Shown: one piece after another, positions 5,152 to 20,514 of the stretch
How positions within the stretch are numbered: the first letter of the stretch is position 1
Layout of the letters: each line of letters starts with the position of its first letter
From: Coriobacteriia bacterium
Lineage (GTDB): Bacteria; Actinomycetota; Coriobacteriia; Anaerosomatales; Kmv31
Length of the DNA stretch: 40,558 nucleotides
Direction of reading: 5' to 3'
NCBI GenBank assembly: GCA_014859305.1
Contig: JACUUM010000018.1
Span: forward strand, 1 to 40,558
Notes under the pieces: model-generated
Databases searched by the model: none
Seen by the model: the letters and a program-made list of their open reading frames with translations, nothing else
Told to the model about the DNA's origin: nothing
Made by a program: the position numbers and the translations under genes

Positions 5152-5165
5152 GTAACGCTCGTTAC
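5152..5165. promoter_or_regulatory. Palindromic operator GTAAC-N4-GTTAC, hydrogenase distal site
   Basis: This is a perfect inverted repeat, GTAACGCTCGTTAC. Its centre lies 32 bp (about three helical turns) from the second site at 5184-5197, which would allow cooperative binding on one DNA face. It lies downstream of the predicted start of the hydrogenase transcript. The same palindrome occurs at 12833 and 20501. Confidence 0.7.
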
Positions 5166-5183
5166 ATGCGAAGGTCGCTACAT

Positions 5184-5197
5184 GTAACTGCTGTTAC
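5184..5197. promoter_or_regulatory. Palindromic operator GTAAC-N4-GTTAC, hydrogenase promoter site
   Basis: The perfect repeat GTAACTGCTGTTAC directly abuts the candidate -10 element (5198-5203). The predicted transcription start, near 5190, falls at its centre. This position favours repression by steric block. The 5-4-5 geometry is that of CRP/FNR-family sites, but the half-site sequence is not that of FNR itself. Confidence 0.75.
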
Positions 5198-5224
5198 GTT
5201 ATACGTCTGAGGAGGGAGGGTCAA
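5198..5224 (-). promoter_or_regulatory. Candidate promoter of the hydrogenase operon
   Basis: On the minus strand, TTGACC (5224-5219) and TATAAC (5203-5198) are separated by 15 bp. The spacer is short, so the exact -10 is uncertain, but the arrangement of -35, -10 and abutting palindrome mirrors the clearer promoter at 12850-12878. Confidence 0.5.
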
Positions 5225-5284
5225 CTCCTTCCAGGCTCAGGATCCGTAACGAGGGCGGTGTTCGCCCGAGGCGGAGACCTCCTC

Positions 5285-6772
5285 CTACGCGCTTCGCTCC
5301 TTCGCCTTCCGGCGCTCCAGGTACTCCGCGTGGTCCACCGCGTCCACCTCGAGCAGTCTTGCCACGCGCTGCAGCTCGGCGTCCTCGGTGCCCAGGAGCT
5401 TCGAACGCTGCGCGATGGAGGCGACCAATGCGGCGCGGTACGTGATGCCGAGCTTCTCCTCGAGGGCGCGGGCATCCGACTCGGAGTGCTCCGCCTCCTC
5501 CAGGAGGTCGCCGGCGGCGATCTCACCGTGGCGCAGATGCTTGACCTTCTCGTAGTCTTCCGGAGATGCCAGCCACTTCACCCGGCGGACGACCATCGCC
5601 TCGGCCTCGCCCTTCTCGAAGAGCGCTTCCACGAAGTCGGCCGTCGCCACGTACCGCTTCTTCCTCAGCAGGAGCAGCAGCGGCAGCAGTAGGAGCGGCG
5701 CCAGGCACCAGTACCAGTACTGCGGGACCTTCACCGTCGGGACGGGGGAGATCTCGGCGGGCCAGCCCCACGCCTGGACGCGCTCGTTGACCGTGTCCGA
5801 GATGTAGAGGACGTTCTGCAGCCCGACCGTGACGTCTCCGGGATAGTTGAACAGCCCCTCGGCTATCCCCTGCTGACCGAAGTTGACCAGCAACTCACCC
5901 TTGAGGTTCCAGATGCCGGCGTCGTGCGAGAGAGTGTCCACCAGGACGGCGCGCTCGGCGGTCGTCGCCTCGGAGGAGCGCGTGACGAAGGTCAGGCCGC
6001 GCGGCAGTCCGCTGGTGCTGATCGTCCTGCTGTACCCCAGAGAGGGATCGAAGATCTGGACGCGCCGGTTGTTGCTGTCGACGACCCACACTTCGTCGCC
6101 GCGAACCTTGATGTTGTTCGGGAACTGGAAGAAATAGGGGCTCTCCAGCGGGTTCTTGGCGATGCCGGCGATACCGACGGCCTTCTTGAACTCCCCGTCC
6201 GGCCCGAACATCAAGAGGCGGTGCCCGTTGAGGATCTCCGAGACGTACAGCGTCCCGTCCGGGGCGAAGCCCAGCGCGACGGGAAGCCATTCCACGCCGT
6301 GCGTCTCGAACGGGGGTCTCTGCTCCTCGGGGAGGTTCGGCTTGAACTCGCGCTTGAACTCCCCGTCCTGCCCGAACACGACGACGCTGCGCGTGCCGCG
6401 GTCCGTGATGTAGAGCTCCCCGCTCTCGGGGTGATCGGCGAGGTACAGCGGGGCGCGCAACCGGTCCTCGCCGAACGTGCCCCTGGGCTCTCCCTTGGGG
6501 CCGAAGCGGAAGATGAGACCTTGCTTGGCGTCCGCGACGTACACCGTGTCCCCGACAGCCAACACGCCCACGGGCCTCTTCAGCTTCGGCTCGCCCTCTC
6601 CGCCGAAGGAGAACAGGTAGGTCGGCGGGTCGACCGCGTCGCGGGTCGTCTGGATGAAGTCGAACTTGAGGCTCTTGGTCTCCCGGAAGTTCACGTACCA
6701 CAGGGCGACGAACGCCAGAAGGAGTGCGAGCAGCGTGATGAGGATGATCTTGCGCCTGCGACGACGCGTCAC
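5285..6772 (-). CDS. Membrane-anchored NHL-repeat beta-propeller protein
   Basis: The 495-residue protein starts with an arginine cluster and one membrane helix (about 9-27). Next comes an NHL-type beta-propeller (about 45-340) with repeated motifs such as DTVYVADAKQGLIFRF, GELYITDRG and VLYISDTVNERVQAW. A second hydrophobic segment, WYWCLAPLLLLPLLLLL (about 350-366), leads to a charged C-terminal tail of about 125 residues. The propeller should face the periplasm or outer surface and the tail the cytoplasm. It is the last gene of the cytochrome operon and overlaps the TPR gene (GTGA). NHL propellers are usually binding scaffolds, so I infer a structural or docking role for the multihaem cytochromes. 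No catalytic residues were recognised. Confidence 0.85.
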   Translation of the reverse strand: MTRRRRRKIILITLLALLLAFVALWYVNFRETKSLKFDFIQTTRDAVDPPTYLFSFGGEGEPKLKRPVGVLAVGDTVYVADAKQGLIFRFGPKGEPRGTFGEDRLRAPLYLADHPESGELYITDRGTRSVVVFGQDGEFKREFKPNLPEEQRPPFETHGVEWLPVALGFAPDGTLYVSEILNGHRLLMFGPDGEFKKAVGIAGIAKNPLESPYFFQFPNNIKVRGDEVWVVDSNNRRVQIFDPSLGYSRTISTSGLPRGLTFVTRSSEATTAERAVLVDTLSHDAGIWNLKGELLVNFGQQGIAEGLFNYPGDVTVGLQNVLYISDTVNERVQAWGWPAEISPVPTVKVPQYWYWCLAPLLLLPLLLLLRKKRYVATADFVEALFEKGEAEAMVVRRVKWLASPEDYEKVKHLRHGEIAAGDLLEEAEHSESDARALEEKLGITYRAALVASIAQRSKLLGTEDAELQRVARLLEVDAVDHAEYLERRKAKERSA

Positions 6773-7848
6773 TTGGAACCGCCCTTCCCGTCCGACGCCA
6801 GGCGCTCCACGGCGCTCTGAGCGGTCTCGTCACCCGGCCGCAGGTTGGCGGCCTCCCTGTAGAGCCCCAGGGCCTGTTCGGCTTCACCGATCCGCTCTCG
6901 GGCCTGGGCGTGCACGAGCACGGCGTCGTACTCCGCCGGCGCGAGCGCGGCGGCGATCCGCGCCGGGGCGAGCGCCTCCTCGGGGTTCCCGGCGTCGAGA
7001 GCCTGCCGCGCCTCCTCGTGGTAGCTGCGCCAGTCACCGAAGGCCGCCAGCTCCTGCACCGCCAGCTCGGCGTCGGGTTGACCGTCGAGAGCCACGCGGA
7101 AGTACTCCGCCGCGGCGGCCTTGTCGGAGTCAAGGAGCAGGCGCCCCACCTCGTAGTTGGCCTCCGGGAACTTGGGGTCGAAGGCGAGCGCGGCCTCCAG
7201 CGTGTTCAGCGCCGCGTCGCGCTCCTCCAGTCCCAGGTAGGCCTGGGCCATCCGCAGGTAGGTGTCGGAGGCGGAGCGCCTGATCCGGAGGGCGGCCTTG
7301 AAGTAGCCGAGCGCCTCCTCGTACTCGCGCTCCTGCAGCGCGAGCTCGCCGAGGTGGAAGTACGCCTCTTCGCGGCGCTTGTTGATGCCCTCGTACTCAC
7401 CGCCCGCGGTGACTTCGAGCACCTTGTTCAGCGCCCCCTTGGCCGTCTCGTAGTCCTTCTCGATGAAGGCTATCTTGGCGATCGCCATGTACGCGCCCGA
7501 GTAGTCCGGATCCAGGTCGATCGCCGCGCGGAGCTCGCGCTTGGCCTCCTTGAACCGCCCGACCGCGCCGTACGCCTCGGCGAGGAGACCCCGTGCCTGG
7601 GGATCGTTCGGGTTCTCGCGGACCGCCTGCTTGAGGTCCTCCAGCACCCTGTAGGCGGGGTTGGCCGCCCTCTGGGCTGCCCGGGTGGCCTTCACCTCGT
7701 ACGCGAAGTAGGCGGCCAACGCCAGCACCGACACGACCAGTGCGGCGAGGACGACGTTCAAGACCAGGTCCGATCGCTCGCCCCGGGGACGCAGCGGAGA
7801 AGGGGTCTCGATCCGCTCGTCCGCGGAGCCGGTCGGTACCTCGGTCAT
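6769..7848 (-). CDS. Membrane-anchored TPR protein
   Basis: The 359-residue protein has a short polar N-terminus and one membrane helix (about 28-48). The remainder is built of tetratricopeptide-type helical repeats, for example from ARGLLAEAYGAVGRFKEAKR and from AYFHLGELALQEREYEEA. TPR domains mediate protein-protein contacts, and similar proteins act as assembly factors in cytochrome c biogenesis. It sits between the 20-haem cytochrome and the NHL protein, so assembly or tethering of the cytochrome complex is a reasonable inference. The 130 bases upstream contain a CGGCTC/GAGCCG hairpin but no convincing promoter. Confidence 0.85.
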   Translation of the reverse strand: MTEVPTGSADERIETPSPLRPRGERSDLVLNVVLAALVVSVLALAAYFAYEVKATRAAQRAANPAYRVLEDLKQAVRENPNDPQARGLLAEAYGAVGRFKEAKRELRAAIDLDPDYSGAYMAIAKIAFIEKDYETAKGALNKVLEVTAGGEYEGINKRREEAYFHLGELALQEREYEEALGYFKAALRIRRSASDTYLRMAQAYLGLEERDAALNTLEAALAFDPKFPEANYEVGRLLLDSDKAAAAEYFRVALDGQPDAELAVQELAAFGDWRSYHEEARQALDAGNPEEALAPARIAAALAPAEYDAVLVHAQARERIGEAEQALGLYREAANLRPGDETAQSAVERLASDGKGGSK

Positions 7849-7978
7849 CGGGCCCCCCTAAGGTGCGCTCGGGTTCGGCACGTCGGCGCGGCTCGCCTCC
7901 CGACCCCGAGCCGGCGAGACGGCGCAGCCGGGCGAGGATCGGACGGTACGGGGTCAGCAATCGGCGAGCCAGGACCTG

Positions 7979-9583
7979 TCAGATGTTCAAGTCGGTATGG
8001 CACCGGCGGCACAGCTCCGCACCCCTGTACGGGGCTATCAGGACGTTCTTGTAGTCGAGGGTGCCGTGACAGTCGTAGCACAACCTCAGGTCGTGCGCAG
8101 CATCCCTGAGGGAGGCCGAGTGGACGCCGTTGCCGTTGCCGTTCGTGCCGAACCCCACGTGGCACTCGTAGCACTTGTACGGCTTGCCCTTGACCTCCTC
8201 GACCTTGAAGTGGACCGCGTGCTCGGCGAAGCCCTTGTGCTTGATCGAGGTGGCCGGCCTCTTCTTCATCTCCTCGTGACACGGCACGCAGTTCTTCTCG
8301 ATGAGCTCGGCGCGTTTCACCGTGTCGTGGTGGCAGCTCTGGCACTTCTCGCGGTCGGTGTGACACACGTTGCAGTCGCCCTCGAGCTCGTCCTTGTTCT
8401 CGGCGTGACCCCTCACCCAGTCCGCGGGATGCGGCATGACGGTGACGTGACACGACTTGCACGACGGGGAGTCGTGGCACGACGCGCACGAGCCCTTCTG
8501 TGTGAGGAACAGACCGCCGTGCTTCGACATCCACTCCGCCTTCCGGTGGTCGGCGGGGATGACCTTTCGCGAGCGCTCGCCGTCGGGGCCGACCTTCCGG
8601 CCCATGTGGCACTCGACGCAGAAGTCCGGCTGGTGGCACATCGCGCAGTAGGCACCTTCGGCGTCGGCCCGCTTGCCGTGCGCCCCCTCTTCGAACTTAG
8701 ACGTGTGGTCCGAGGGCTTGAGCTCGAAGTCCTTGGGATGGCATGCGCCGCACTCCTCGGTGGCCACGAGACCGGAAGCGGCGTGCGTCAGGCCGTGACA
8801 GCGGTAGCACGACAGCATGTCGGGGCGACGCGCTCCGTCGATGTCGTGCCCGAACTTGGGATGGCACACCGTGCACTGGTAGTTGCGCCGGATGTGCTCC
8901 GCGTGCTCGAAGATGACGGTGCCGGGCACGAAGTCGTCGATGTCCGGGTGGCAGTAGATGCACTGGCCCATGCTGGTCGGCTGGTCCGGGTAGACCTTGA
9001 TGGAGGGCCGCTCGAGCTTGGGGGCCAGCACCGTCTCGTACCCCTTGGGCATCTGCCCCACGTCGACCTTCTCGGCCTTATGGCACGCGTCGCAGTCCTC
9101 GGGCCCGTCGTGGCACAACATGCAGGCGTTGACCCCGAGCTTGCCGCGTTCGGCGTGCGGCCCGCCCGCCCAGTCCTTCACGTGGCTCCTCGGGCGGAGC
9201 TTGAACGAGGGCGTGTGGCAGTCCCTGCACTCCGAGGTGGCCAGCTCGCCCTGCGGACCGTGCTGGATGCCGTGGCAGTTGAAACAGCTCTCCATCGGCG
9301 GCGAGTACGTCTTGCCGTCCTCGTGCGCCGCGCGGTAGTGGCACGCCGAGCAACTCACCAGCAAGTGGTTGCCGTGCTCGAAGACGAGCCCCGGCTTGCG
9401 CGCCGTGGCGATGCGGGCGTGGCATGGCGCGCAGTTCGACGCCTCCACCTGGGCGGTGAGGTCGATGGGGTCCTTCGTCTGGCCGGCGCTGGTCGCTCCG
9501 CCGAACGCGAAGGCGGCGGCCATCACGATGATGACCGCCACCCCCCATATCTTCCGTCTCGTCGTGTTCCGTCTCGGGGTCAC
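7979..9583 (-). CDS. 20-haem c-type cytochrome
   Basis: The 534-residue secreted protein has an N-terminal Arg/Lys cluster and hydrophobic signal segment. I count 20 CXXCH motifs, from CAPCH near the N-terminus to CRRCH ten residues from the C-terminus, or about one haem per 27 residues. The arrangement is repetitive: pairs such as CMLCH/CDACH and CAMCH/CVECH recur with HGPQGELAT- and ASGLVAT-type linkers, suggesting growth by internal duplication. It shares those linkers with the 13-haem gene upstream. It starts at GTG behind a GGTGAGG RBS. A chain of this length could act as an electron wire out through the cell wall; the terminal acceptor is unknown. Confidence 0.93.
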   Translation of the reverse strand: MTPRRNTTRRKIWGVAVIIVMAAAFAFGGATSAGQTKDPIDLTAQVEASNCAPCHARIATARKPGLVFEHGNHLLVSCSACHYRAAHEDGKTYSPPMESCFNCHGIQHGPQGELATSECRDCHTPSFKLRPRSHVKDWAGGPHAERGKLGVNACMLCHDGPEDCDACHKAEKVDVGQMPKGYETVLAPKLERPSIKVYPDQPTSMGQCIYCHPDIDDFVPGTVIFEHAEHIRRNYQCTVCHPKFGHDIDGARRPDMLSCYRCHGLTHAASGLVATEECGACHPKDFELKPSDHTSKFEEGAHGKRADAEGAYCAMCHQPDFCVECHMGRKVGPDGERSRKVIPADHRKAEWMSKHGGLFLTQKGSCASCHDSPSCKSCHVTVMPHPADWVRGHAENKDELEGDCNVCHTDREKCQSCHHDTVKRAELIEKNCVPCHEEMKKRPATSIKHKGFAEHAVHFKVEEVKGKPYKCYECHVGFGTNGNGNGVHSASLRDAAHDLRLCYDCHGTLDYKNVLIAPYRGAELCRRCHTDLNI

Positions 9584-9640
9584 GACCTCACCTAACCGGC
9601 TGCGCCTCCGTCCCGCGGCGGGGTCACCGCGGGAGGCGGG

Positions 9641-10897
9641 TCACAGCCACGACTTGATCCGGTCTATCGCCTGCTGCAGGGCGTTCGTCTTGCGCGCCTC
9701 CACCTTCTGGTGGATCAGGCTCTTGGCGCCCTCGACGAACGACTCGCCCGAGCCCTTGTGGCAGCCCTCGCGACCGCCGACCCCGCCGCAGGTGGCCACC
9801 AGCTGACCCTCGTTGGTCAGCGAGTTCGGGTCGCTCGTGGGCAGGACCTCGTGCGCGCCGTGGCAGTCCCAGCACGACGGGGCGTCCCTGTTGCCCCTCT
9901 TGTACGCCGCGCCGTGGTAGTAGTCGTCGTAGCTGTCCCACTGAGCGCGGTGGCAGCGCGCGCAGATCCTGTACGCGGCGCCGTGCAACTCGTCCTTGGC
10001 GGCCTGCGTGTCGAGGCGCCGGATGTAGTGGCCGCCGTGGCAGCTCGAACAGGTCGCCGACCCCATGTCCCCGGCCATCAGCTTCTGGCCGTGAACGGAC
10101 TGCTGGTAGAGATCCTTCTGCTCCGCATGGTCATGGCAGCCCTGGCACGCCAGTCCCGCGTTGACCGCCCACAGCTTGGTCGAGTCCGTGCGCTCCTCGT
10201 AACGGAAGTCCGGGTGGCACTCGATGCAGCTCCTGTCGCGGTGCGCGGATTGGTCGACACCGGTCACCTGGAAGGACTTCGGCTGGCCTCCGACCGTCTT
10301 GGACAGCCCCTCCTCGGCGTGGCACGCCATGCATCCGGCCTGGGGGTCATACACGTAGGGCTTGTCCGGCTTCCACCGGATGCCCTCGGACGCGTGGCAG
10401 TCGTCGCAGTGCTTGTCGTCGTGACACATCATGCAGCGCGTCTGGAGCTCCTGGTTGCTGGGAGCCACGTGGGGCTTGCCGGACCAGTCGAACGTGTGGA
10501 ACGACGGCCGGAGCCGCTGCTTGGGTGTGACGTGGCAGTCCTCGCACTTCCCGGTCGCCAGCTCGCCCATCGGCCCGTGCTGCAGACCGTGGCAGTTGAA
10601 GCACATCTTCATCGTGGGCCGCTCGGTGCCCTCCGGACGATGAGGGAACTGTCCGTGACAGCTGCTGCACTGCACGAGGATGTGCAGACCGTGCCCGAAG
10701 ATGATCTCGTTGCTGTAGTTCTTGGTCTCGGAGATGTTGGCGTGGCACATGTCGCACTTGGCCCACTCCACCTGACCGCTCGTGTCGATCACAACCGCCG
10801 AAGCGGGCGTGGCCGCCGCCAGCAGCGCCGCCAGCGCGAGCGCCGCCAGCGAGACGGAGACGAGCCGTGCCGTCCGCCCCCCCATCGAAGCTGCCAT
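9641..10897 (-). CDS. 13-haem c-type cytochrome with one CX8CH site
   Basis: The 418-residue secreted protein has a signal peptide that probably ends near ASA at 32-34. Twelve canonical CXXCH motifs run from CDMCH to CWDCH. A thirteenth candidate reads CGGVGGREGCH, with eight residues between the cysteines. The paralogous site in the neighbouring 7-haem protein is the normal CGKCH, so the site looks like a haem motif with an internal insertion. The N-terminal half parallels the 20-haem protein (FNCHGLQHGPMGELATG) and the C-terminal third parallels the 7-haem protein (WDSYDDYYHGAAYKRG, CWDCHGAH). The gene lies 40 bases after the 7-haem gene, with an AGGAAGGGG RBS. Electron transfer in the same conduit is inferred. 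Confidence 0.93.
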   Translation of the reverse strand: MAASMGGRTARLVSVSLAALALAALLAAATPASAVVIDTSGQVEWAKCDMCHANISETKNYSNEIIFGHGLHILVQCSSCHGQFPHRPEGTERPTMKMCFNCHGLQHGPMGELATGKCEDCHVTPKQRLRPSFHTFDWSGKPHVAPSNQELQTRCMMCHDDKHCDDCHASEGIRWKPDKPYVYDPQAGCMACHAEEGLSKTVGGQPKSFQVTGVDQSAHRDRSCIECHPDFRYEERTDSTKLWAVNAGLACQGCHDHAEQKDLYQQSVHGQKLMAGDMGSATCSSCHGGHYIRRLDTQAAKDELHGAAYRICARCHRAQWDSYDDYYHGAAYKRGNRDAPSCWDCHGAHEVLPTSDPNSLTNEGQLVATCGGVGGREGCHKGSGESFVEGAKSLIHQKVEARKTNALQQAIDRIKSWL

Positions 10898-10937
10898 CGT
10901 CCCTAACCCCTTCCTCCTCGGCCGGAAGACCGACCCG

Positions 10938-11822
10938 TTACACGAACAGCGCCTTCAGCGACCCGAACAGGCCCGTGACAGCCTCGCGCGTCTGCCGAAG
11001 GAACGAGTACACCGGGTTGCTCGCCAGCACTTCGCCCTTGCGATGCACGAGCCCGGCGTAGGACACGTACTCGGCGTTCACTCCGTCATGGCACTTCCCG
11101 CACGTCTCCTCCAGATTGGACTCGTTGGTCATGGACCGGCGGTCGGCCGAGGGCTGGATGTCGTGCGCGCCGTGGCAGTCCCAGCACGCGGGCGCGTCCG
11201 GGGCGCCCCTGCGGTACGCCGCGCCGTGGTAGTAGTCCGCGTAGTTGTCCCACTCCTCGGGGTGGCACCGTCCGCACACCTCCCAGCCGTGCCGGTGGAG
11301 CGACGCGCGGCCCGCGGGGTTGTCCGTGAGCGGCTCGATGGCGTGCGCACCGTGGCAGTCTCCACATAGAGGTTTCTCCGGAGCGGCCGGGTCCACCTGC
11401 TCGCCGGGCCGGACGGTCATGCTGTGGACACCCGTGCCGAAACTCTGGAACTGCTCGTCGTGGCAGTTCTTGCAGGCCAGTTTCGCCGTCGCCCGCCAGT
11501 CGGTCTGCTTGATGTTGTGGGGTGCCTTGAAGGCGAAGTCGATGTGGCAGCCGGTGCACATGATCGTCACGTGCGCCGAGGCGTCGAGCATCTCGGGGTC
11601 CACCCAGTACGTGAGGAACCGGCCCTCCTTCAAGCGGATCAGGTTCTCGTCGGCGTGACACACCATGCAGCCCGACTTGCCGGCGGTGGGCAGGGTGAAG
11701 TTCATGTCGTAGTCCTGCGCCGAGGCGACCGCCGGCGCCGCGAGCACGGCCGCCGCGAGCACGAGCAGCCGAGCCGCGGAGCGCGCCGCCGTCCCCGGCA
11801 CTATGGGTCGTGCGAGGCCCAC
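10938..11822 (-). CDS. 7-haem c-type cytochrome
   Basis: The 294-residue secreted protein has a signal peptide ending near VASA. It has seven CXXCH motifs: CMVCH, CTGCH, CKNCH, CGDCH, CGRCH, CWDCH and CGKCH. Non-motif histidines such as those in HNIKQ, HGAH and YYHGAAY could be distal ligands. A GTG start follows AGGAGG. It comes directly after the cytochrome b gene, so it is the most likely first acceptor of electrons from the quinol-oxidising subunit. Its C-terminal portion is homologous by eye to the end of the 13-haem protein. Confidence 0.92.
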   Translation of the reverse strand: MGLARPIVPGTAARSAARLLVLAAAVLAAPAVASAQDYDMNFTLPTAGKSGCMVCHADENLIRLKEGRFLTYWVDPEMLDASAHVTIMCTGCHIDFAFKAPHNIKQTDWRATAKLACKNCHDEQFQSFGTGVHSMTVRPGEQVDPAAPEKPLCGDCHGAHAIEPLTDNPAGRASLHRHGWEVCGRCHPEEWDNYADYYHGAAYRRGAPDAPACWDCHGAHDIQPSADRRSMTNESNLEETCGKCHDGVNAEYVSYAGLVHRKGEVLASNPVYSFLRQTREAVTGLFGSLKALFV

Positions 11823-11852
11823 TGGCCCTCCTAAGCGCCGCTTCCCGCGGCG

Positions 11853-12698
11853 CTACTCGACCTTGCTCATCGCCGGTTCGGCCACGTGCCCTTCCTCGGG
11901 CTCGTGCTCGTGCCCGGCATGCTCCTTGTCCAGGAAGCTCAGCCCGAAGAAGTTCAGGAACGCGGGGAAGTCCTCGGTGACCGAGAGGTAGACGTGGATC
12001 GTCGTGAGGATGATGAAGAGCCAGTTCACGACGTAGTGGGTGATGCGCATGTACCAGCCGGCGAGGTCCGTGCTGCCCACCAGTGCCCCGAGCCACCAGC
12101 CGACCAGCAGGTCTCGCGGCGAATAGCCGACGATGAACTTCTGGGTCAGCAGCGCGAAACCGGTGAAGGCCTGGAGGATCAGCAGCGGCGCGAAGATCGT
12201 GTAGGTCGCCTTCTGCATGACGTTGTACTTGCCGAGGTGCGGCTTGGAGGGCTTCACGAAGATGTAGTACAGGATGACCTTCGGGGCGGTGATGATGTCA
12301 CGCCTGGTTATCGCGAACTCCCGGTAGTCGCGCTGCCGGGAGGAGAACGCGTACCACAGGCGCCACACCAGGTTGACCGTCACGACGACCATGGCGACGT
12401 AGTGCAGGTACCGCATGGTCGTGCGGCCGCCGGTGAAGAACGGGAACCGGATGTAGAGGCCGGTGACCGCCAGCACGATCATCGAGCCGACGTGCTGGAA
12501 GTGCAGGAACTTCGGCAGGAACGGGATCGGCGGGCCCTCGTGGTGCGGCCACTCCCAGCCTCCGAAGCGGCGCTTGGCGCGCCCGGTGATGATGTTCCCG
12601 AGGAAATGCCCGGCGAGCCCTGCCAGGACGACCGCGTAGAGGGTCGTGAAGATCACGTCGAGCCATACGTTGAGTTCTGTGAGGACTATCGCCGACAC
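11853..12698 (-). CDS. Cytochrome b-type membrane subunit, quinol to c-haem relay
   Basis: The 281-residue protein has about five hydrophobic segments (roughly 12-32, 68-88, 96-116, 164-186, 220-242). Conserved-looking histidines at 69, 99, 221 and 235 lie within or at the ends of helices, as in the di-haem cytochrome b family of [NiFe]-hydrogenases and formate dehydrogenases. A His/Glu-rich tail (about 260-275) is unusual. It is the first gene of the six-gene operon, so it probably oxidises menaquinol and feeds the 7-haem cytochrome. The GTG start has a weak GGGG-type RBS, so the start is not firm. Confidence 0.85.
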   Translation of the reverse strand: MSAIVLTELNVWLDVIFTTLYAVVLAGLAGHFLGNIITGRAKRRFGGWEWPHHEGPPIPFLPKFLHFQHVGSMIVLAVTGLYIRFPFFTGGRTTMRYLHYVAMVVVTVNLVWRLWYAFSSRQRDYREFAITRRDIITAPKVILYYIFVKPSKPHLGKYNVMQKATYTIFAPLLILQAFTGFALLTQKFIVGYSPRDLLVGWWLGALVGSTDLAGWYMRITHYVVNWLFIILTTIHVYLSVTEDFPAFLNFFGLSFLDKEHAGHEHEPEEGHVAEPAMSKVE

Positions 12699-12832: not shown

Positions 12833-12846
12833 GTAACAGCAGTTAC
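12833..12846. promoter_or_regulatory. Palindromic operator GTAAC-N4-GTTAC, cytochrome operon
   Basis: The perfect inverted repeat GTAACAGCAGTTAC begins three bases downstream of the -10 element of the cytochrome operon promoter and covers the predicted start site (near 12843). A protein bound here should block initiation. Confidence 0.78.
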
Positions 12847-12849
12847 TAT

Positions 12850-12878
12850 AGGATAGGGACGGGGGTGGTCGGTGTCAA
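12850..12878 (-). promoter_or_regulatory. Promoter of the multihaem cytochrome operon
   Basis: On the minus strand, TTGACA (12878-12873) and TATCCT (12855-12850) are separated by exactly 17 bp, a near-consensus housekeeping promoter. The leader to the cytochrome b start is about 145 bases and contains a short GGACGT/ACGTCC hairpin (12719-12736). Confidence 0.75.
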
Positions 12879-12923
12879 CGAGAACCAGCTCCTCGCCACG
12901 CTCGGACGGGTACCCCTCGCGTC

Positions 12924-12950: not shown

Positions 12951-12955
12951 TCTCA

Positions 12956-13198
12956 TCAGGCCCAATCCTCGAAACTGACGCTTGCCGACGGGCGTATCCC
13001 GCCGGACTTCATGACGCGCTCCGCTGCAGGAGCGTCCCCGGGCGCCACCCGCAGGGCGATGCCGCACAGCGCGCCGAGCGAGGCGGGCGTGGGGATGGGC
13101 ACGACCGGGATGCCGGCGGCCTTCAGACGCTCCTCGGCCGCTATGGCGTCGTGCGTGCTCTCGAAGCCGAACGCCGCGAACTCGCTCCGCTCGCTCAT
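12956..13198 (-). CDS. DUF3343 (putative Se/S carrier-like) protein
   Basis: This 80-residue protein has the DUF3343 layout: FGFESTHDAIAAEERLKAAGI near the start, IPTPASLGALCGIALRV in the middle with the single conserved Cys at about position 45, and an amphipathic C-terminus. The family is annotated as putative Se/S carrier-like and often accompanies selenium genes or cysteine desulfurases. Its ATG overlaps the stop of the desulfurase-like gene (ATGA), so the two are translationally coupled. I infer that it accepts a persulfide or selenosulfide from that enzyme through its Cys. The function of the family has not been proven. Confidence 0.82.
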   Translation of the reverse strand: MSERSEFAAFGFESTHDAIAAEERLKAAGIPVVPIPTPASLGALCGIALRVAPGDAPAAERVMKSGGIRPSASVSFEDWA

Positions 13199-14379
13199 CG
13201 GGTGAGCTCCGAGAGGGCCTCCAGGGCGAGGTCGACGTGCGCCTCCGTGTTGCCCCAGCCCAGTCCGAACCGCAGCGCGCCGGTCGCGAGCGTGCCGAGG
13301 GTCTCGTGGGCCCACGGCGAGCAGTGCAGGCCCGCGCGCGTGGCTATCCCGTACCGCCTGTCGAGCGCGAAGGCGAGCTGGTCGGCGTCTACGCGCTCGT
13401 GCGTCACCGCGAGCACCGGGACGCGAGGCTCGTCGGGGCCGGGACCGAGCACGCGGAAGCCGCCGATGCCCAGCAGCCCCTCGTGCAGGCGGCGCAGCAG
13501 GCGGCGCTCCTCGGCGCGCTGGGCCTCGCCGCGCTCCGCGAGCAGCCGCGCCGCCGCGCCGAGGCCCGCGATGCCGGGCGTGTTGGGCGTGCCGGCCTCG
13601 TAGCGCTCGGGGCGCACCAGCGGCTGGACCGGCTCCTCGGAGCGGCCGGCGCCGGTGCCGCCCTGCAGCAGCTCCTCGGCGTCCACGTGCGGCGCGAGGT
13701 AGAGCGCGCCGATGCCCTGCGGGCCGAGCAGGCCCTTGTGACCCGAGACCGCGTAGGCGTCCGCTCCCAGAGCGGCCACGTCGACGGGCAGGTGACCGGC
13801 GGCCTGCGCGCCGTCGACGAACATGAGCGCGCCGGCGGCGTGCGCCACGTCGGCGAGATCGCCGACCGGCTGGATGCTCCCGGTGAGGTTGGACGCGTGC
13901 GTGCACGCGACCGCTCGCGTGGGCGCGGCGCGCACGGCGGCCTCGACGGCGTCGGCATCCACGGTCCCGTCGGTCTCGGCGGTGACCACCACCACCTCGA
14001 CGCCGGCGGAGGTCAGGCGGTTCAGCGGCCGGGAGACGGCGTTGTGCTCCATGGAGGTCGTCACGACCCGGTCACCGCGGTGCAGGACGCCCTTGAGCAT
14101 CAGGTTCGCCGCCTCCGTGGCGCCGGAGGTGAACAGCAGGTCGCGCGGGTCCGGCACGTGCAGGAGGGCGGCGAGGTCGCGACGCGCCTCGAAGATCAGG
14201 CGCGACGACGCCATCGCCAGGCGGTAGGCGCCGCGCCCCGGGTTGCCGCCATAACGGGTGAGCGCTGAGACGACGGCCTCGACGACCTCGGGCGGCTTGG
14301 GCCAGGACGACGCGGCGTGGTCGAGGTAGACGGTGGTCGCCGCCACGTCGCGAACATCATCGGAGGAGGGGTGCGGCAC
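13195..14379 (-). CDS. Cysteine desulfurase-like class V aminotransferase
   Basis: This is a PLP enzyme of the NifS/SufS/selenocysteine-lyase fold. The N-terminus has YLDHAASS, the pyridoxal lysine lies in SGHKGLLGPQG, and near the C-terminus GLHCSPWAHETLGT supplies the active-site Cys followed by a conserved phosphate-binding loop. The start is uncertain: GTG at 14379 gives 394 residues just after the mogA stop, and GTG at 14346 gives 383 residues, closer to the family length. Placement between mogA and the DUF3343 gene suggests it supplies sulfur for molybdopterin or FdhD-dependent sulfuration, or selenium for SelD. The sequence cannot separate these. Confidence 0.88.
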   Translation of the reverse strand: MPHPSSDDVRDVAATTVYLDHAASSWPKPPEVVEAVVSALTRYGGNPGRGAYRLAMASSRLIFEARRDLAALLHVPDPRDLLFTSGATEAANLMLKGVLHRGDRVVTTSMEHNAVSRPLNRLTSAGVEVVVVTAETDGTVDADAVEAAVRAAPTRAVACTHASNLTGSIQPVGDLADVAHAAGALMFVDGAQAAGHLPVDVAALGADAYAVSGHKGLLGPQGIGALYLAPHVDAEELLQGGTGAGRSEEPVQPLVRPERYEAGTPNTPGIAGLGAAARLLAERGEAQRAEERRLLRRLHEGLLGIGGFRVLGPGPDEPRVPVLAVTHERVDADQLAFALDRRYGIATRAGLHCSPWAHETLGTLATGALRFGLGWGNTEAHVDLALEALSELTR

Positions 14380-14381
14380 CG

Positions 14382-14867
14382 CTACGCGTGCCCCCCTCCG
14401 CGCATCATCTCGACCGCGTGCTCCAGCTGGTCCGCCACCACCGCGAACGTCTCGCGGGCGGCCTTCTCGCTGCCCGGCAGGTTGACGATGAGCGCGTCCC
14501 CCCTCATCGCGGCGACGCCGCGGGAGAGCATCGCGCGGGCGGTGACCTTCATCGACTCGGCGCGGATCGCCTCGGCGACGCCGGGGACGATCCGGTCGGC
14601 CACGGAGACGGTGGCTTCGGGCGTCACGTCCCGAGGACCGAGCCCCGTGCCGCCCGTGGTCAGCACGACGTCGGCGCCGTCCGCATCGCACATCTCGATG
14701 AGCGAGGCGGACAGGCACTCCTCGTCGTCGGGGCACACGTGGTAGTCCACCACCGTCCACCCGCGCTCCTCGCACAGCGCCACGAGCGCCTTGCCGGAGG
14801 TGTCCTCGGCCTCGCCCGCCGCCCGGCTGTCCGAGCTGGTGAGCACGGCCACCTTGAGCTCCGTCAC
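14382..14867 (-). CDS. mogA: Molybdopterin adenylyltransferase (MogA/MoaB family)
   Basis: The 161-residue protein activates molybdopterin by adenylation before metal insertion by MoeA. The family signature TTGGTGLGPRDVTPEA is intact, as are NLPGSEKAARE and the N-terminal VLTSSDSRAAGEAEDTSG. It uses a GTG start. In the ten-gene Moco operon it stands next to a MOSC-domain gene, an arrangement common in anaerobes. Confidence 0.93.
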   Translation of the reverse strand: MTELKVAVLTSSDSRAAGEAEDTSGKALVALCEERGWTVVDYHVCPDDEECLSASLIEMCDADGADVVLTTGGTGLGPRDVTPEATVSVADRIVPGVAEAIRAESMKVTARAMLSRGVAAMRGDALIVNLPGSEKAARETFAVVADQLEHAVEMMRGGGHA

Positions 14868-14892
14868 CGGCCCCTCCTCTCCCCCTGCATCA

Positions 14893-15399
14893 TCAGAGCG
14901 GCTCCGCCCGCGCGTCGGCCGGCACGCGGTCGCACGCGCCGTCGCCCAGCGACAGCACGCGGACCTCGTCCCCGACGCTGACCGGTCCGGCCACGCGGAC
15001 GACCGCGAAGATGCCCTCCTTGGGCATCACGCAGTCCCCGGCCTGGTAGAAGATCGCGCACTTGGTGTGGCAGACCTTGCCGATCTGAGAGACCTCCAGC
15101 TCTACTTCAGGTCCTATCTTCACGCGCGTCCCGACCGGCAGTGACAGCAGGTCGATCCCGCGCGTGGTGATGTTCTCGGCGAAGTCCCCGGGCCCCACGT
15201 CGAGCCCGGCGGCGCGCATCTTGTCGATGGACTCGAGCGCGAGCAGGCTCACCTGCCGGTGCCAGTCACCGGCGTGCGCGTCGCCGACGAATCCGCGATC
15301 GAGCTCCAGCTCGCCCGCCTTGCCGGGCGTCTTGCGCACCGTCTTGCGCTCGGACACGTTGACCGAGACGACCTCGGCGGCCCCGTTCTGGGCGGTCAT
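14893..15399 (-). CDS. MOSC-domain protein
   Basis: The 168-residue stand-alone MOSC domain has the family hallmarks: an N-terminal beta segment, RGFVGDAHAG, FAENITTRGIDL, and the Cys-bearing HTKCAIFYQAGDC. MOSC domains carry or transfer sulfur on a conserved Cys and occur in Moco sulfurases. Sitting between mogA and moaC, it probably modifies or delivers the cofactor. The desulfurase-like enzyme two genes downstream is a possible sulfur donor. Confidence 0.9.
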   Translation of the reverse strand: MTAQNGAAEVVSVNVSERKTVRKTPGKAGELELDRGFVGDAHAGDWHRQVSLLALESIDKMRAAGLDVGPGDFAENITTRGIDLLSLPVGTRVKIGPEVELEVSQIGKVCHTKCAIFYQAGDCVMPKEGIFAVVRVAGPVSVGDEVRVLSLGDGACDRVPADARAEPL

Positions 15400-15408
15400 C
15401 GCGACACC

Positions 15409-15894
15409 TCACTCCTCCCGGGCCCAGCGGCCCGTCTTGCCGCCCTCTTTCAGCAAGAGGGCGGTCTCCTCGATCGTCATGCCGCGATCCACGGCCTTGC
15501 ACATGTCGTACAGGGTGAGCGCCGCGACCGAAGCGCCCGTGAGCGCCTCCATCTCCACGCCGGTCCTGCCGTCGGTCTCCACCGTGGCGGTGACCTCGAA
15601 GCCGGCGGGCAGCGGCTCGATCGCCACGCTCGCGTGCGTGAGGGGGAGCGGGTGGCACAGCGGGATGAGCTCGCTCGTGCGCTTCGCGGCCATGATGCCC
15701 GCCACGCGCGCCACCGCGATCACGTCTCCCTTGGGCGCGCGGCCCTCGGCCACCATCTCGACGGTCTCGGGTCGGCACCGCAGGCGCGATCGCGCCACCG
15801 CGCGGCGCCGGCTGACGGCCTTGGCGCCCACGTCGACCATGCGCGCGGCTCCGCGCGCGTCCACGTGCGTAAGGGCGGCGTCCTCCTCGGGCAT
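15409..15894 (-). CDS. moaC: Cyclic pyranopterin monophosphate synthase
   Basis: The 161-residue protein works with MoaA to convert GTP to cyclic pyranopterin monophosphate. The N-terminal [17 protein letters not shown], the central [18 protein letters not shown] and [21 protein letters not shown], and the C-terminal [19 protein letters not shown] match the MoaC family throughout. It follows moaA with one base between stop and start. Confidence 0.95.
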
Positions 15895-15895
15895 C

Positions 15896-16966
15896 TCAGC
15901 CTCCTATCTGGTACATGCGGCGGGCGGTGCCCACCCGCATGCCGTGGGTGGCGGGCTTGGCGGCCAGCGCGGCGCGGATGAGCGCCCGGACGTCCTCGTC
16001 CGAGGCGCCGGAGCGCATCAGGACGCGCACGTCGAGCTCGTCGTCGGAGAACAGACAGGGGCGCAGCCGGCCGTCGGCGGTCAGCCGCAGGCGGTTGCAC
16101 TCGCCGCAGAAGTGGTGCGACAGCGGCGAGATCACGCCGAGGGTGCCCACCGCGCCGTCGAAGCGGTAGTAGCGCGCAGGTCCCCAGCCGCCGGGCGCCG
16201 AGGAGCGCCCGAGCGCGCGAAGCTCCCCGAGGCCGGCCGCGGCGCCCTGCGCGGCGAGCGAGGCGAGGATCTCGGCCGAGGGCACGTGGTCCGCCTCGCT
16301 CCAGGCGCCGGCGCCGGCGGCGATGCCGTGCGCGGCGCCTGCCTCCGACGCCGAGGTCGCCGAGCCGCCGCAGCCGCTCGTCTCGGCGGCGCCGATCGGC
16401 ATGTACTCGATGAAGCGCACGTGCACGGGGCGATCCAGCGTGAGCCGCGCGAAGGCGAGGAGGTCCTGCTCCAGCGAGCGGGCGACCACCACGTTCACCT
16501 TGACGGGGTCGAAGCCGACGTCGAAGGCCGCGTCGATGCCCGCGAGCGCGTCGGCGAGCCTGCCGCCGCGCGTCACGCGCTCGTAGACCTCGGCGTCCAG
16601 CGAGTCCAGCGAGACGTTCACGCGCCTGAGGCCGGCCTCGGCGAGCCCGGCCGCGTAGCGGGGTAGCAGGATCCCGTTGGTGGTCAGCGCGATCGACTCG
16701 ATGCCGGTCGTGGCGAGGAGGCGGCGGACGTGACCGACCACGCCGTGGCGCACGAGCGGCTCGCCGCCGGTGAGGCGGATCTTGGAGATCCCCTCCTCGA
16801 CCGCCACACGCGCGAACCGCTCGACCTCCTCCAGCGTGAGGATCTCCTCGTGCGGCTTCCAGGGGACGCCCTCGTCGGGCATGCAGTACAGGCAGCGCAG
16901 GTTGCAGCGGTCGGTGAGCGAGACCCGCAGGTAGTCGATACGCCGTCCGAACGCGTCGGTCGCCAT
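15896..16966 (-). CDS. moaA: GTP 3',8-cyclase (radical SAM)
   Basis: The 356-residue protein catalyses the first step of molybdopterin synthesis. The SAM [4Fe-4S] motif CNLRCLYC is at residues 22-29, followed by the conserved TGGEPL. The C-terminal substrate cluster is formed by [18 protein letters not shown]. An Ala/Gly/Ser-rich, probably disordered stretch of about 30 residues (about 200-235) is inserted before the C-terminal domain, making it longer than typical (about 330). The start overlaps the mobB stop (ATGA). The usual C-terminal GG is present. Confidence 0.96.
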
Positions 16967-17550
16967 CAGCGCCCTTCCCTGCCGGGGCCGCCGGCGGGCA
17001 GGAAGCGCTCCTCGATCAGGTCCGCGAGCGCCTCGGCCTCCCCGAACCCGAAGACGGGCACGCCCGCCGGGCGCAGTCCGGGGTTGTCGGTCACCAGCGC
17101 GAAGAGCTCCTCGGGCGCGCAGATCAGCTCGTCGGAGCGCCCGTGCCGCGAGACCTCGATGCGCGTGTGGCCGGCGCGGCGGAAACCTTCGGTGACGAGC
17201 AGGTCGACGTCCCCGGCGGCCTCAGCGAGCTCGTCCAGCGTGCGCTCCCGCTCCACGCGCCTGATCAAACCGAACTTGTCCGGCGCGCTGATCATGGTGA
17301 CGTGAGCGCCCGCCCGCGCATGGCGCCAGGAGTCCTTGCCGGGGACGTCGATGTCGAAGTCGTGCACGTGGTGCTTGACCGCCGCGACGCGCCAGCCGCG
17401 CCGCGAGAGCGCGCCGATGAGGCGCTCCATCACCGTCGTCTTGCCCGAGTCGCTCTTGCCCACGACCGAGACGACGGGCAGCGCGACGGCGCAGGCCTCG
17501 TCGCGCTCTCCACCCGCCCGCTCGCCCCGCATGCCCGTCCGCTCGCTCAC
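16966..17550 (-). CDS. mobB: MobB-type molybdopterin-guanine dinucleotide accessory protein
   Basis: The 194-residue P-loop GTPase has a Walker A (GKSDSGKTT), KHHVHDFDIDVPGKDSWRHARAGA and a Walker B region in VDLLVTEGFRR, all characteristic of MobB. It uses a GTG start; an internal ATG six codons later is possible. It lies 19 bases after the small CELGCF protein. MobB helps attach GMP to the cofactor, which fits a bis-MGD enzyme such as formate dehydrogenase as the end user. Confidence 0.9.
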   Translation of the reverse strand: MSERTGMRGERAGGERDEACAVALPVVSVVGKSDSGKTTVMERLIGALSRRGWRVAAVKHHVHDFDIDVPGKDSWRHARAGAHVTMISAPDKFGLIRRVERERTLDELAEAAGDVDLLVTEGFRRAGHTRIEVSRHGRSDELICAPEELFALVTDNPGLRPAGVPVFGFGEAEALADLIEERFLPAGGPGREGR

Positions 17551-17569
17551 GCGCTTCCTTCCGCGGCCG

Positions 17570-17788
17570 CTAGAAGCAGCCCAGCTCGCAGTTCTTCACG
17601 CGCACGCCGGCCTCGTCGGCCGCCGCGCCGGCCACCGCGTAGGGCACCGATCGCTCCTCGGCCAGCCTGCGAAGGACGGGGCAGGTGATCCGCCCGTCGG
17701 TCGCGCGCTCGCGAACCGCCTCGACCAGTCCCGGGCTGACCTGCGCCACGATGCCCGCCGGCCTCTCCTTGGGTGCTCCGCCGCTCAT
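17570..17788 (-). CDS. Small Cys-containing Moco-operon protein of unknown function
   Basis: This 72-residue protein begins MSGGAPKERPAG. The middle looks like a short helix-turn-helix (LVEAVRERATDGRITCPVLRRLAEERSV, broken here by family-like spacing), and the end is VRVKNCELGCF. It has three cysteines: one in ITCP and two in NCELGC. From memory, similar 60-80 residue proteins with a C-terminal CxLGCF occur beside molybdopterin genes in other anaerobes, but I know no assigned function. The ATG overlaps the moeA stop (ATGA), so translation is coupled. A metal- or sulfur-binding helper is a guess. Confidence 0.75.
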   Translation of the reverse strand: MSGGAPKERPAGIVAQVSPGLVEAVRERATDGRITCPVLRRLAEERSVPYAVAGAAADEAGVRVKNCELGCF

Positions 17789-19026
17789 GGGGTCCCTTCC
17801 TCGATGTCCAGTCGCATGCACGTCACCTCGCTGCCCGCGGCGAACGCGCCGGCGCCCTCGGGCAGCACCATGAAGCAGTTGCCGAGGTGCGCCGCGGTCA
17901 GCAGCGCCGAGGACTGGCTGCCCGACAGCGCGACCTCATAGGCGCCGTCCTCGGCCCGCGCGAGGCGTGCGCGAAGGTAGTACCGGCGGTCCTGCTTCTT
18001 CTTCACGTCGTGGGCCAGGCGCGCGGTCACGGCGGGCCGGTCGAGCGCCCCGCGCCCCGCCATCTTCAGCAGCGCGGGCCGCACGAAGACCTCGAAGCCG
18101 ACGTACGTGCTCGTCGGGTTGCCCGGCAGGCCGAAGAAGGGCACGCCGGCGACGGCTCCCATCGTCTGCGGGTTGCCCGGCCGCATGGCGACCTTGCAGA
18201 AGGTGAGCTCGCCGATCTCCTCGAGCACGGGCCTCACGTAGTCGAAGTCGCCCACGCTCACGCCGCCGGAGGTGGCGATGAAGTCGGCCTCCTCGGCGGC
18301 GAGCAGGAACGCGGCGCGGGTCGCCTCGGGCTCGTCGGGCACGATGGGGTAGCGCAGCGGCACGCCGCCGGCGGCGAGCACCTGCGCGGCGATCGAGTAG
18401 CTGTTCGAGTTGCGGATCTTGCCCGGCCCGGGGCTCTCGGCGACCTCGACGAGCTCGCTGCCCGTGGACAGCACCGCCACGCGCGGGCGGCGGCGGACCG
18501 CGACCTCGGCGTGGCCCGTCGCGGCGAGCAGCCCGACGGCGGCCGGTCCGAGGACGTCGCCCGGCGCGACGACGACCTCGCCGGCGCGGACCTCCTCGCC
18601 GCGGCGCCGGACGTGCTCGCCGGCCGCCGGCTCGCGCTCGATCGCCACACGGCCGCCGGCGCCGCCACCGTCGGCGAGCGCGCGGGTGAACTCGACCATG
18701 ACGACCGCGTCGGCGCCCGCGGGCAGGGGTGCGCCGGTCATGATCCGCGCGGCCTGGCGGGCCGCCAGCCGCCCGGCCCACTCCTCGCCCGCCGCGATGT
18801 GCGCGACGACCTCGAGCTCGCACGGCGTATCCGGGGTCGCGCCACGACAGTCCTCGGAACGCAGCGCGTAACCGTCCATGGCCGAGTTGTCGAAGGGCGC
18901 GACGTCGATGTCGGAGACGGCGGGCTCGGCGAGCACGCGCCCGAGCGCGTCCAGGAGCCCCACCCGCTCCGGCTCGAGCACGCTCACCCGCGCGAGCAGC
19001 AGCTCCCGGGCCTCCTCGACCGTCAT
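17785..19026 (-). CDS. moeA: Molybdopterin molybdotransferase
   Basis: The 413-residue protein inserts molybdate or tungstate into adenylated molybdopterin. The N-terminal MTVEEARELLLARV and PFDNSAMDGYAL, the central TGAPLPAGADAVV, STGSELVE and TSGGVSVGDFDYV, and LPGNPTSTYVGFEVFV identify MoeA. A GTG three codons upstream (19035) overlaps the fdhD stop and is an alternative start. With a tungstate transporter upstream, the enzyme may handle tungsten as well as molybdenum; the sequence does not decide this. Confidence 0.95.
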   Translation of the reverse strand: MTVEEARELLLARVSVLEPERVGLLDALGRVLAEPAVSDIDVAPFDNSAMDGYALRSEDCRGATPDTPCELEVVAHIAAGEEWAGRLAARQAARIMTGAPLPAGADAVVMVEFTRALADGGGAGGRVAIEREPAAGEHVRRRGEEVRAGEVVVAPGDVLGPAAVGLLAATGHAEVAVRRRPRVAVLSTGSELVEVAESPGPGKIRNSNSYSIAAQVLAAGGVPLRYPIVPDEPEATRAAFLLAAEEADFIATSGGVSVGDFDYVRPVLEEIGELTFCKVAMRPGNPQTMGAVAGVPFFGLPGNPTSTYVGFEVFVRPALLKMAGRGALDRPAVTARLAHDVKKKQDRRYYLRARLARAEDGAYEVALSGSQSSALLTAAHLGNCFMVLPEGAGAFAAGSEVTCMRLDIEEGTP

Positions 19027-19031
19027 CGGCC

Positions 19032-20441
19032 TCACGTGCCCTCCTCCGACCCGGCGCGCACGCGCTCGGCGTGGGTGTACACGTTCATCTTGCCGCCGCG
19101 CGCGTAGCCCACGAGCGTGATGCCGAGCTCCTCGGCCAGCTCGGCGGCCAGGTCTGTCACCGCGCTGCGCGAGACCACGACGGGCACGCGGGCCTTGGCG
19201 GCCTTCACCGCCATCTCGTAGGAGACACGGCCCGTGGTGAGCAGCACCGCGTCGGCCGTGGGCACGCCGTCCATCCACGCGCGGCCGAGCAGCTTGTCCA
19301 GCGCGTTGTGCCGCCCGACGTCCTCGCGCACGATCGCCAGCGAGCCGTCGCGCCCCAGCCCGCACGCGTGCATGCCGCCGGTGTCGCGGTACGAGGTCGC
19401 GGCGCGCGCCATCTCCCCCATCATCCCGTACAGCTCCGAGGCGTCCACGGTGGTGCCCGAGGAGACGCGCTCCAGCCCGCGTGCGTGCCCGATGGAGGCG
19501 AACGTCAGACCGCCGCCGCACCCTGAGGTCACGTACCGCGTCCTGCGGGCCAGGTCCTCGGGGACCTGCTCGTCGGAGACGACGTACACCATGCCGCGCT
19601 TGTGGTCGACGTCCACGGAGCGGAACGCCGCCCGGTCCGCGAGGATGCCCTCCGCGACCAGGAAGCCCACGGCGAGCTCCTCGAGGTCGTCGGGAGAGGC
19701 CTGGACGGTCGCGATCTCGGCGTCGTTGAGGTGGATCGTCACCGGACGCTCGGCCGGCAGGCCGCGCGGCCGGCGGGTGCCGACCTCGACGACGGCGTGG
19801 ACGGCCTGCGCGGCGACGGCCTCCTCGGCCTCGCGCACGTCGGCGAGGTCCGAGGGCGTGTTGACGTTGACGAGGCTGCGAAGCGCCGGGTCGGCGCCGC
19901 GCAGGGCCTCGGCGGGCACCTCGGCGACCGCGACCTCGGAGAAGACCGACACGAGCCGGCGCCTTCCGGTCGCCAGCGCGCGCTCGGCGGCGGGGAGCAC
20001 GCTCGCGTGGTAGAGCGCGAGCAGGGGTTCGGGGCCCTTGTCGGTGACGGGTACGACGACCTGCACGCCCTCTCGCGCCTCCCACAGCGCGCGCACGATG
20101 CCCGGAGCCACCCAAGGCATGTCGGCGGCGACCGCGAGCACCCACCCGCCGTCGCCGGCGTGCGCCAGCGCGGTGGCCAGACCGCCGAGCGGACCCTGGA
20201 ACGGGATGTCGTCGGCGAGGACCTCGATCCCCGCGGGCAGCTCCACGCCCTCCACGGCCTCGGGACGGTTCGTCACGACGACCACGCGCTCGCACGCCTC
20301 GCCCACGGCGTCGACGACTCGGCGTAGCAGCGGCACGCCGTCCAGCGGCAGGAGCGTCTTGTCGACACCCATGCGCATCGAGCGGCCGCCGGCCAGCACG
20401 GCGGCGGTCAGCGGGAGCCTGTCACCGGTGCTCTCGCTCAT
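19032..20441 (-). CDS. MobA-FdhD fusion: MGD synthase plus formate dehydrogenase sulfurase
   Basis: This 469-residue fusion has an N-terminal MobA domain (about 1-205) with the guanylyltransferase signature LAGGRSMRMGVDK and AVAADMPWV, which attaches GMP to molybdopterin. The C-terminal FdhD domain (about 225-465) has FLVAEGIL, TGGMHACGLG, VREDVGRHNALDKLLG and SRSAVTDLAAELAEE, and sulfurates the cofactor for formate dehydrogenase. The FdhD loop reads TSGCGGGLTF, with one Cys where E. coli FdhD has CXXC. The start was set at MSESTGDRL, behind AGGGA; an extension to 20507 has no RBS and was rejected. It is the first gene of the Moco operon, with the palindrome about 60 bases upstream. Confidence 0.93.
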   Translation of the reverse strand: MSESTGDRLPLTAAVLAGGRSMRMGVDKTLLPLDGVPLLRRVVDAVGEACERVVVVTNRPEAVEGVELPAGIEVLADDIPFQGPLGGLATALAHAGDGGWVLAVAADMPWVAPGIVRALWEAREGVQVVVPVTDKGPEPLLALYHASVLPAAERALATGRRRLVSVFSEVAVAEVPAEALRGADPALRSLVNVNTPSDLADVREAEEAVAAQAVHAVVEVGTRRPRGLPAERPVTIHLNDAEIATVQASPDDLEELAVGFLVAEGILADRAAFRSVDVDHKRGMVYVVSDEQVPEDLARRTRYVTSGCGGGLTFASIGHARGLERVSSGTTVDASELYGMMGEMARAATSYRDTGGMHACGLGRDGSLAIVREDVGRHNALDKLLGRAWMDGVPTADAVLLTTGRVSYEMAVKAAKARVPVVVSRSAVTDLAAELAEELGITLVGYARGGKMNVYTHAERVRAGSEEGT

Positions 20442-20500
20442 CGGTCCCTTTCCCTTGTGGCGCCCGTACGCTGGGGGAGCGCACCGAGGCGGACCACATC

Positions 20501-20514
20501 GTAACAAACGTTAC
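20501..20514. promoter_or_regulatory. Palindromic operator GTAAC-N4-GTTAC, Moco operon
   Basis: The perfect inverted repeat GTAACAAACGTTAC lies in the 85-bp gap between tupC and the mobA-fdhD start, flanked by C and G to give a 16-base palindrome. A weak -35/-10 pair (TTGCTG at 20535-20530, TAACGT at 20513-20508, 16-bp spacer) would place the -10 inside the site. It implies that the Moco operon can be transcribed separately from tupABC. Confidence 0.7.

Follow-up and report, generated by a model that had tools for sequence, protein, structure and literature searches.

The winged-helix repressor Rex, which senses NAD(H), acts on a Rex operator (ROP) of the form TTGTGAAN4TTCACAA (PMC8376106), and for HcpR2, which belongs to the CRP/FNR family and regulates hybrid cluster protein (hcp) genes, the motif GTAACnnnnGTTAC has been published (PMC1274295). 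In the two described isolates of the order Anaerosomatales (Actinomycetota), H2 or formate is used together with thiosulfate, sulfur or Fe(III); a Rex-type gene inside a multihaem cluster was noted earlier in an isolate of this order, for which the parts of that report available to us give no operator, and one Rex-type gene of Es71-Z0120 is stated to be missing from M08DHB (PMC9686372). Here we analysed a 40,558-nucleotide stretch of a Coriobacteriia bacterium of the same order (assembly GCA_014859305.1, contig JACUUM010000018.1; hereafter the window), in which a perfect palindrome, GTAAC-N4-GTTAC (pattern GTAACNNNNGTTAC), stands ahead of hydrogenase, cytochrome and molybdenum cofactor (Moco) operons. 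Because the site is also found in the promoter region of rex and has the geometry of a Rex operator, we predict, with a probability of about 0.9, that it is a Rex operator of variant form, TTGTAAC-N4(or 5)-GTTACAA.

The palindrome and the rex gene

An exact-pattern search of the window recovered the four perfect copies described in a first-pass annotation of this DNA, all of them intergenic and each heading a minus-strand operon:

5152..5165, unstranded: predicted variant Rex operator, downstream copy at the hydrogenase promoter; perfect palindrome
5184..5197, unstranded: predicted variant Rex operator, promoter-proximal copy at the hydrogenase; perfect palindrome
12833..12846, unstranded: predicted variant Rex operator of the cytochrome b561/multihaem operon; perfect palindrome, beginning 3 nt past the -10
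20501..20514, unstranded: predicted variant Rex operator of the Moco operon; perfect palindrome

No copy arose in 100 dinucleotide shuffles of the window. The two hydrogenase copies, spaced 32 bp, lie between the 3' end of an NHL-repeat gene (5285) and the start of the hydrogenase small-subunit gene (4876, minus strand). The third copy is about 135 bp upstream of the minus-strand cytochrome b561 gene (open reading frame (ORF) start at 12698) and the fourth precedes the mobA-fdhD ATG (20441) by about 60 bp.

The first-pass annotation had proposed a scan of the whole genome and of relatives. In the source genome (2.13 Mb, 76 contigs) the scan returned six perfect sites and no copy of the reversed control pattern, and in relatives the site was found to be kept upstream of orthologous operons. 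The fifth genomic site (contig C26) precedes a rex gene by 51 bp. The sixth (C46) is followed, after about 430 bp, by a gene for a Tat-signal molybdopterin oxidoreductase, whose in-frame TGA at codon 213 is probably a selenocysteine codon. Although the motif is short, it is hardly credible that the palindromes are chance occurrences or a non-regulatory repeat: 0.27–0.61 perfect sites are expected in the genome at 66–72% GC (three genome stretches have 69.5–71.1%), and the conserved position at orthologous genes already contradicts chance. Moreover, among 61 Anaerosomatales genomes, including the source genome, the extended pattern TTGTAACN4GTTAC was found in 54 and its reversed control in none.

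Rex1 was present in 52 of these 61 genomes (at least 63% identical), including the source. It combines PF06971 and PF02629 (winged helix and NAD-binding Rossmann domain) and scores above cut-off for the NCBIfam Rex models NF003995, NF003993, NF003996 and NF003994. Its Gly-rich stretch is largely invariant in eight compared sequences, source included, and all eight of its PDB matches carry the name Rex or, in one case, AT-rich DNA-binding protein. Named database hits to the source Rex, two of them labelled Anaerosomatales, share 64–78% identity with it, which fits placement of the genome in this order. Upstream of rex1, both operator arms were perfect in 45 of the 52 genomes, source included, with an N4 centre in 32 and an N5 centre in 13; two more genomes (G052 and G056) were added when one mismatch was allowed. 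The regions of G012, G023, G030, G029 and G014 did not fit or deviated. Additional rex loci of the order from databases, partly from the same genomes, had perfect arms in 38 of 44 cases. For Rex2 genes (34–40% identical to Rex1), none of 12 had an upstream site within one mismatch. Genomes with the extended pattern comprised 50 of the 52 having rex1 and 4 of the 9 without it (Fisher p 0.0004), a comparison blurred by incomplete assemblies. The 5-bp centre is seen at rex in most of family f13 (e.g. L034, L036, L047) and in G010, and these genomes also hold N4 sites elsewhere. In G029 the region upstream of rex1 reads GTAGC-N4-GCTAC; a co-evolved regulon of this form was considered but is not supported, as the pattern followed by NAT has a single occurrence in G029, the rex1 one, and G013 and G059 hold one copy each.

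NAT comes directly after the right arm at all 45 perfect rex1 sites, creating a TACNAT box that overlaps this arm. With a TTG 16–18 bp ahead of TACNAT, as in 41 of the 52 rex1 upstream regions, the operator would take up the spacer between TTGNNN and TACNAT.

The consensus over 126 distinct sites is TTGTAACN4GTTACAA, in which the flank preference is biased because many sites were preselected for the TTG flank. Like the ROP, it is an 18-bp inverted repeat with an N4 centre and outer TTGT/ACAA. It differs from the ROP in its inner half, AAC/GTT rather than GAA/TTC (two changes per half), and in the 5-bp centre at rex in some families. In the source genome no canonical Rex operator was found within one mismatch; the best canonical-like site (L018, two mismatches) was set aside, its scanned neighbours including only a threonine--tRNA ligase gene. 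A predicted Rex site of Lactobacillus oligofermentans has GTTACAA as one half, and TTGTAAC occurs once in the portion of the same paper that was available, in a gluconokinase site of another table (PMC4972977). In the literature searched, mostly at listing level, no description of a TTGTAAC-type Rex operator was found.

We extended the comparison to 69 rex loci of other Actinomycetota (a first set of 29 plus 40 taken from the rest, with two genomes counted twice), typing operators with up to two mismatches in 14. In the 25 loci that could be typed, Arg at the variable position of the recognition helix went with a TTGTAAC-like operator (10/10) and Lys at the same position with a TTGTGAA-like operator (15/15; Fisher p 3e-7, kinship ignored).

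Short palindromes are also used by other repressor families, and a further repressor might bind this one and control rex among other genes. We regard this as highly unlikely, given that the site recurs upstream of rex1 across families, that it has Rex-operator geometry and Rex-like targets (nuo, alcohol dehydrogenase), and that its type co-varies with the Rex recognition helix.

Genes behind the site

In the window, the operons behind the predicted Rex operators contain the following genes and promoter:

101..1525, minus: multihaem c-type cytochrome
1396..3588, minus: [NiFe] hydrogenase large subunit (Pfam; NCBIfam matches below cut-offs)
3611..4876, minus: [NiFe] hydrogenase small subunit (Pfam; NCBIfam matches below cut-offs)
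7979..9583, minus: multihaem cytochrome
9641..10897, minus: multihaem cytochrome
10938..11822, minus: multihaem cytochrome
11853..12698, minus: cytochrome b561 (Ni-hydrogenase b-type) subunit
12850..12878, minus: predicted sigma-70-like promoter of the cytochrome operon, TTGACA-17-TATCCT (promoter scan)
14893..15399, minus: MOSC-domain protein
15409..15894, minus: moaC
15896..16966, minus: moaA
16966..17550, minus: mobB
17785..20295, minus: ORF with moeA as its 3' half; the 5' part overlaps mobA-fdhD and the true start is internal
19032..20441, minus: mobA-fdhD fusion, which opens the Moco operon

Two of the copies had been said to cover start sites just past the -10. For the cytochrome operon this agrees with the scanned promoter. 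At 5184 the promoter scan was blank; by eye, TTGACC-15-TATAAC, with a short spacer, directly precedes the site on the minus strand. The scan was also blank at 20501, where a terminator-like match overlaps the site. A position 3 nt past the -10 (cytochrome operon) or in the promoter spacer (rex) suits a repressor, and the repressor-like action proposed earlier is in keeping with this overlap of predicted promoter elements.

Across the order we counted at least 115 sites: 25 at rex1, 13 at hydrogenase genes and 77 others. For 75 of the others the surroundings were fetched; 10 of the 75 lay inside ORFs of a simple gene caller, in some cases probably because starts were misassigned. By blastp we clustered the 78 genes found no more than 450 bp from these 75 sites; one or two members per cluster were named by Pfam or NCBIfam, only 10 proteins being named by Pfam and several single proteins remaining without a name. 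The largest cluster, of 23 loci, encodes a formate dehydrogenase-like oxidoreductase, one relative's protein being 59% identical to the source genome's own. An SDR dehydrogenase followed with 13 loci, NuoA (nuoA) with 10 and NuoB (nuoB) with 2. A cytochrome b561 cluster with the site was found in four relatives, one protein being 65% identical to that of the window. Smaller groups were Ndk (3), YCF48-like proteins (3), an unnamed group of 118–145 amino acids (3) and MobA-FdhD (2); two more pairs and singles, one of them an alcohol dehydrogenase, made up the remainder. For the [NiFe] hydrogenase, a perfect site within 600 bp upstream was present in 18 of the 20 copies with loci, source included, compared with a mean of 0.01 in upstream stretches shuffled so as to preserve base composition only. 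The misses were G035 and G038, and coordinates add sites in G015, G031 and G003.

This target set (hydrogenase, formate dehydrogenase-like enzyme, nuo, dehydrogenases, cytochrome b561) is what would be expected of a Rex regulon. As with ROP regulons, the sites lie over predicted promoters and at rex itself, and the targets belong to NADH and hydrogen metabolism; the Anaerosomatales set differs in taking in the cytochrome b561/multihaem and, patchily, the Moco operons. The claim that a single regulator joins these operons is borne out for the hydrogenase and cytochrome genes, whose orthologues keep the site; the Moco operon carries it in the source genome and is a patchy member of the regulon.

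HcpR2 and other candidate regulators

The palindrome had first been attributed to a CRP/FNR-family protein, an attribution that gives way to the location of the site in the rex promoter region and to its Rex-operator geometry. The most specific form of that idea, namely that the site belongs to HcpR2, appears very unlikely. Although the source genome encodes two CRP-type proteins that pass the Pfam cut-off (and three weaker ones below it), and hcp-type (Prismane) genes occur in 51 of the 61 genomes, the site, even with one mismatch allowed, was absent from all 30 hcp upstream stretches scanned (600 bp at most). This control is blunt: only 2 of these 30 stretches showed a perfect TTGAC-N4-GTCAA, since hcp frequently follows other genes. 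The source genome's own HcpR-like gene (C75) carries TTGACGTCCGTCAA at the 5' end, on the side of ygbA/hcp. This copy (L007 1943-1956), situated upstream of hcp with ygbA on one side and the HcpR-like gene on the other, is probably HcpR's own site; it extends over the opening codons of the longest HcpR-like ORF, which probably has its true start further downstream. The CRP-type regulator that uses GTAACnnnnGTTAC has Pro at CRP position 181 (PMC1274295). In a by-eye alignment the recognition helices VPETLSR and SRETASR both have Glu, not Pro, at this position; the proposed search for a co-occurring CRP/FNR-type gene did yield two proteins, neither with the HcpR2-type proline. The HcpR2 regulon and the Anaerosomatales sites share a consensus and differ in setting: the latter accompany nuo, formate dehydrogenase-like and hydrogenase genes as well as rex, and the site at the local HcpR-like gene is of the TTGAC type.

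Several observations weigh against Rex1 as the protein that binds the palindrome. The published HcpR2 consensus is identical to it. A strict promoter scan gave no promoter at the source rex gene, and the TAC of the TACNAT box belongs to the right arm of the operator. Two rex1-bearing genomes, G014 and G029, are without any TTGTAACN4GTTAC site, and four genomes in which rex1 was not found still carry sites. The source genome encodes two further Rex homologues (G000:C35:5829-6464 and G000:C57:1661-2188, L079 and L080; 36% and 26% identical to Rex1), so that Rex1 is named as the binder from its position; both have counterparts in many genomes of the order, with no operator recognised. The Moco operon fits loosely, with a site upstream of mobA-fdhD in 4 of 30 genomes, source included (3 of 29 relatives). 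Among the 69 loci outside the order, 44 were without a typable operator (25 with Arg, 17 with Lys and 2 unread). Finally, the Rex of Streptococcus agalactiae has Arg50-Arg51 and binds TTGTGAA (PMC8376106); the Arg/Lys rule is therefore not general, failing outside the phylum, and the residue alone is not decisive.

Leader segments and the proposed switch

Two features of the hydrogenase leader lie between the predicted Rex operators and the coding region:

5031..5076, minus: conserved leader segment, GGGTYGGAGCCGGCAC type, between the operators and the hydrogenase gene (match to model R1, E 0.0098; a training copy)
4937..5001, minus: hairpin AACGCCACC...GGTGGCGTT and, behind it, a U-rich run, ahead of the hydrogenase start (seen in the sequence)

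This previously undescribed segment, GGGTYGGAGCCGGCAC...ACCC, was present between operator and start in 17 of 24 hydrogenase gene copies; in two of the 17, G035 and G038, it occurred without the operator. It was not found in the other seven (G046, G037, two in G034, G006, G027 and G018). Further along, GGAGGTGG followed in 11 of the 17 leaders, in many of them, by eye, within a hairpin ahead of a U-rich run. The hairpin at 4937..5001, a possible attenuator, was not called in a scan for short-loop terminators. Searching the 61 genomes with the model produced 21 matches, spread over 20 genomes: the 17 training copies and 4 others. One of these others, a convincing extra copy, is found at the end of a contig in G002, 58 nt downstream of an operator; the matches in G004, G009 (second match) and G014 (E 0.004–0.09) are probably due to chance. 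As candidates for a known RNA, the window leader and five hydrogenase loci gave no Rfam match, and four leaders searched to E 5 gave a single match at E 0.81. RNAalifold returned no compensatory pair in the leader. An outer helix was weakly favoured, its observed mean being reached in 37 of 2000 swaps and the count of helices with at least four pairs in 131 of 2000. Since no pair is compensatory and the helix statistics are weak, we call the segment conserved rather than structured.

At the formate dehydrogenase-like gene the leader holds a known element: the Moco riboswitch (RF01055) lies directly behind the operator in all 24 loci scanned, source included. None was found in the five hydrogenase loci scanned. 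The combination of this riboswitch with a predicted Rex operator is a difference both from described RF01055 systems and from Rex regulons. The window itself has a Moco riboswitch at 23284-23414 (minus strand), just upstream of a solute-binding protein gene that is perhaps part of a molybdate/tungstate transporter.

We tentatively suggest that two switches are stacked ahead of each main electron-donor enzyme, a Rex operator first and then a leader RNA of its own. The hydrogenase leader (GGGTYGGAGCCGGCACGAAGACCC, in many cases then a GGAGGT hairpin and U-rich run) might then be a new riboregulator for a hydrogenase-linked signal, e.g. nickel or cofactor supply.

Selenium genes share the window with the Moco and hydrogenase genes: tRNA-Sec (36251-36343, minus), the 3' part of selB (40073-40531, minus) and a gene for a Se/S-carrier-like protein (12956-13906, minus). 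An ODP-type beta-lactamase/flavodoxin protein (27528-29966, minus) and a large sensor kinase (37328-39529, minus) lie in a part of the window that holds no perfect copy of the palindrome.

By analogy with described Rex proteins, a Rex dimer would bind over the promoter at low NADH/NAD+ and block transcription, and a build-up of NADH would release it from the DNA. Hydrogenase, electron-transfer cytochromes and, in the source genome, Moco synthesis would then come on together. Expression of the formate dehydrogenase-like gene, with operator and Moco riboswitch in the same leader, would be governed jointly by redox state and the supply of cofactor.

These results carry a caution, in that a motif catalogued for HcpR can be a Rex operator. 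They also set TTGTAAC-type and TTGTGAA-type Rex sites apart within one phylum, a change of specificity that could be tested by exchanging residues of the recognition helix. Collectively, they predict a redox regulon for the Anaerosomatales, with a named regulator and its switch, through which hydrogen, formate and cytochrome genes are probably switched together.

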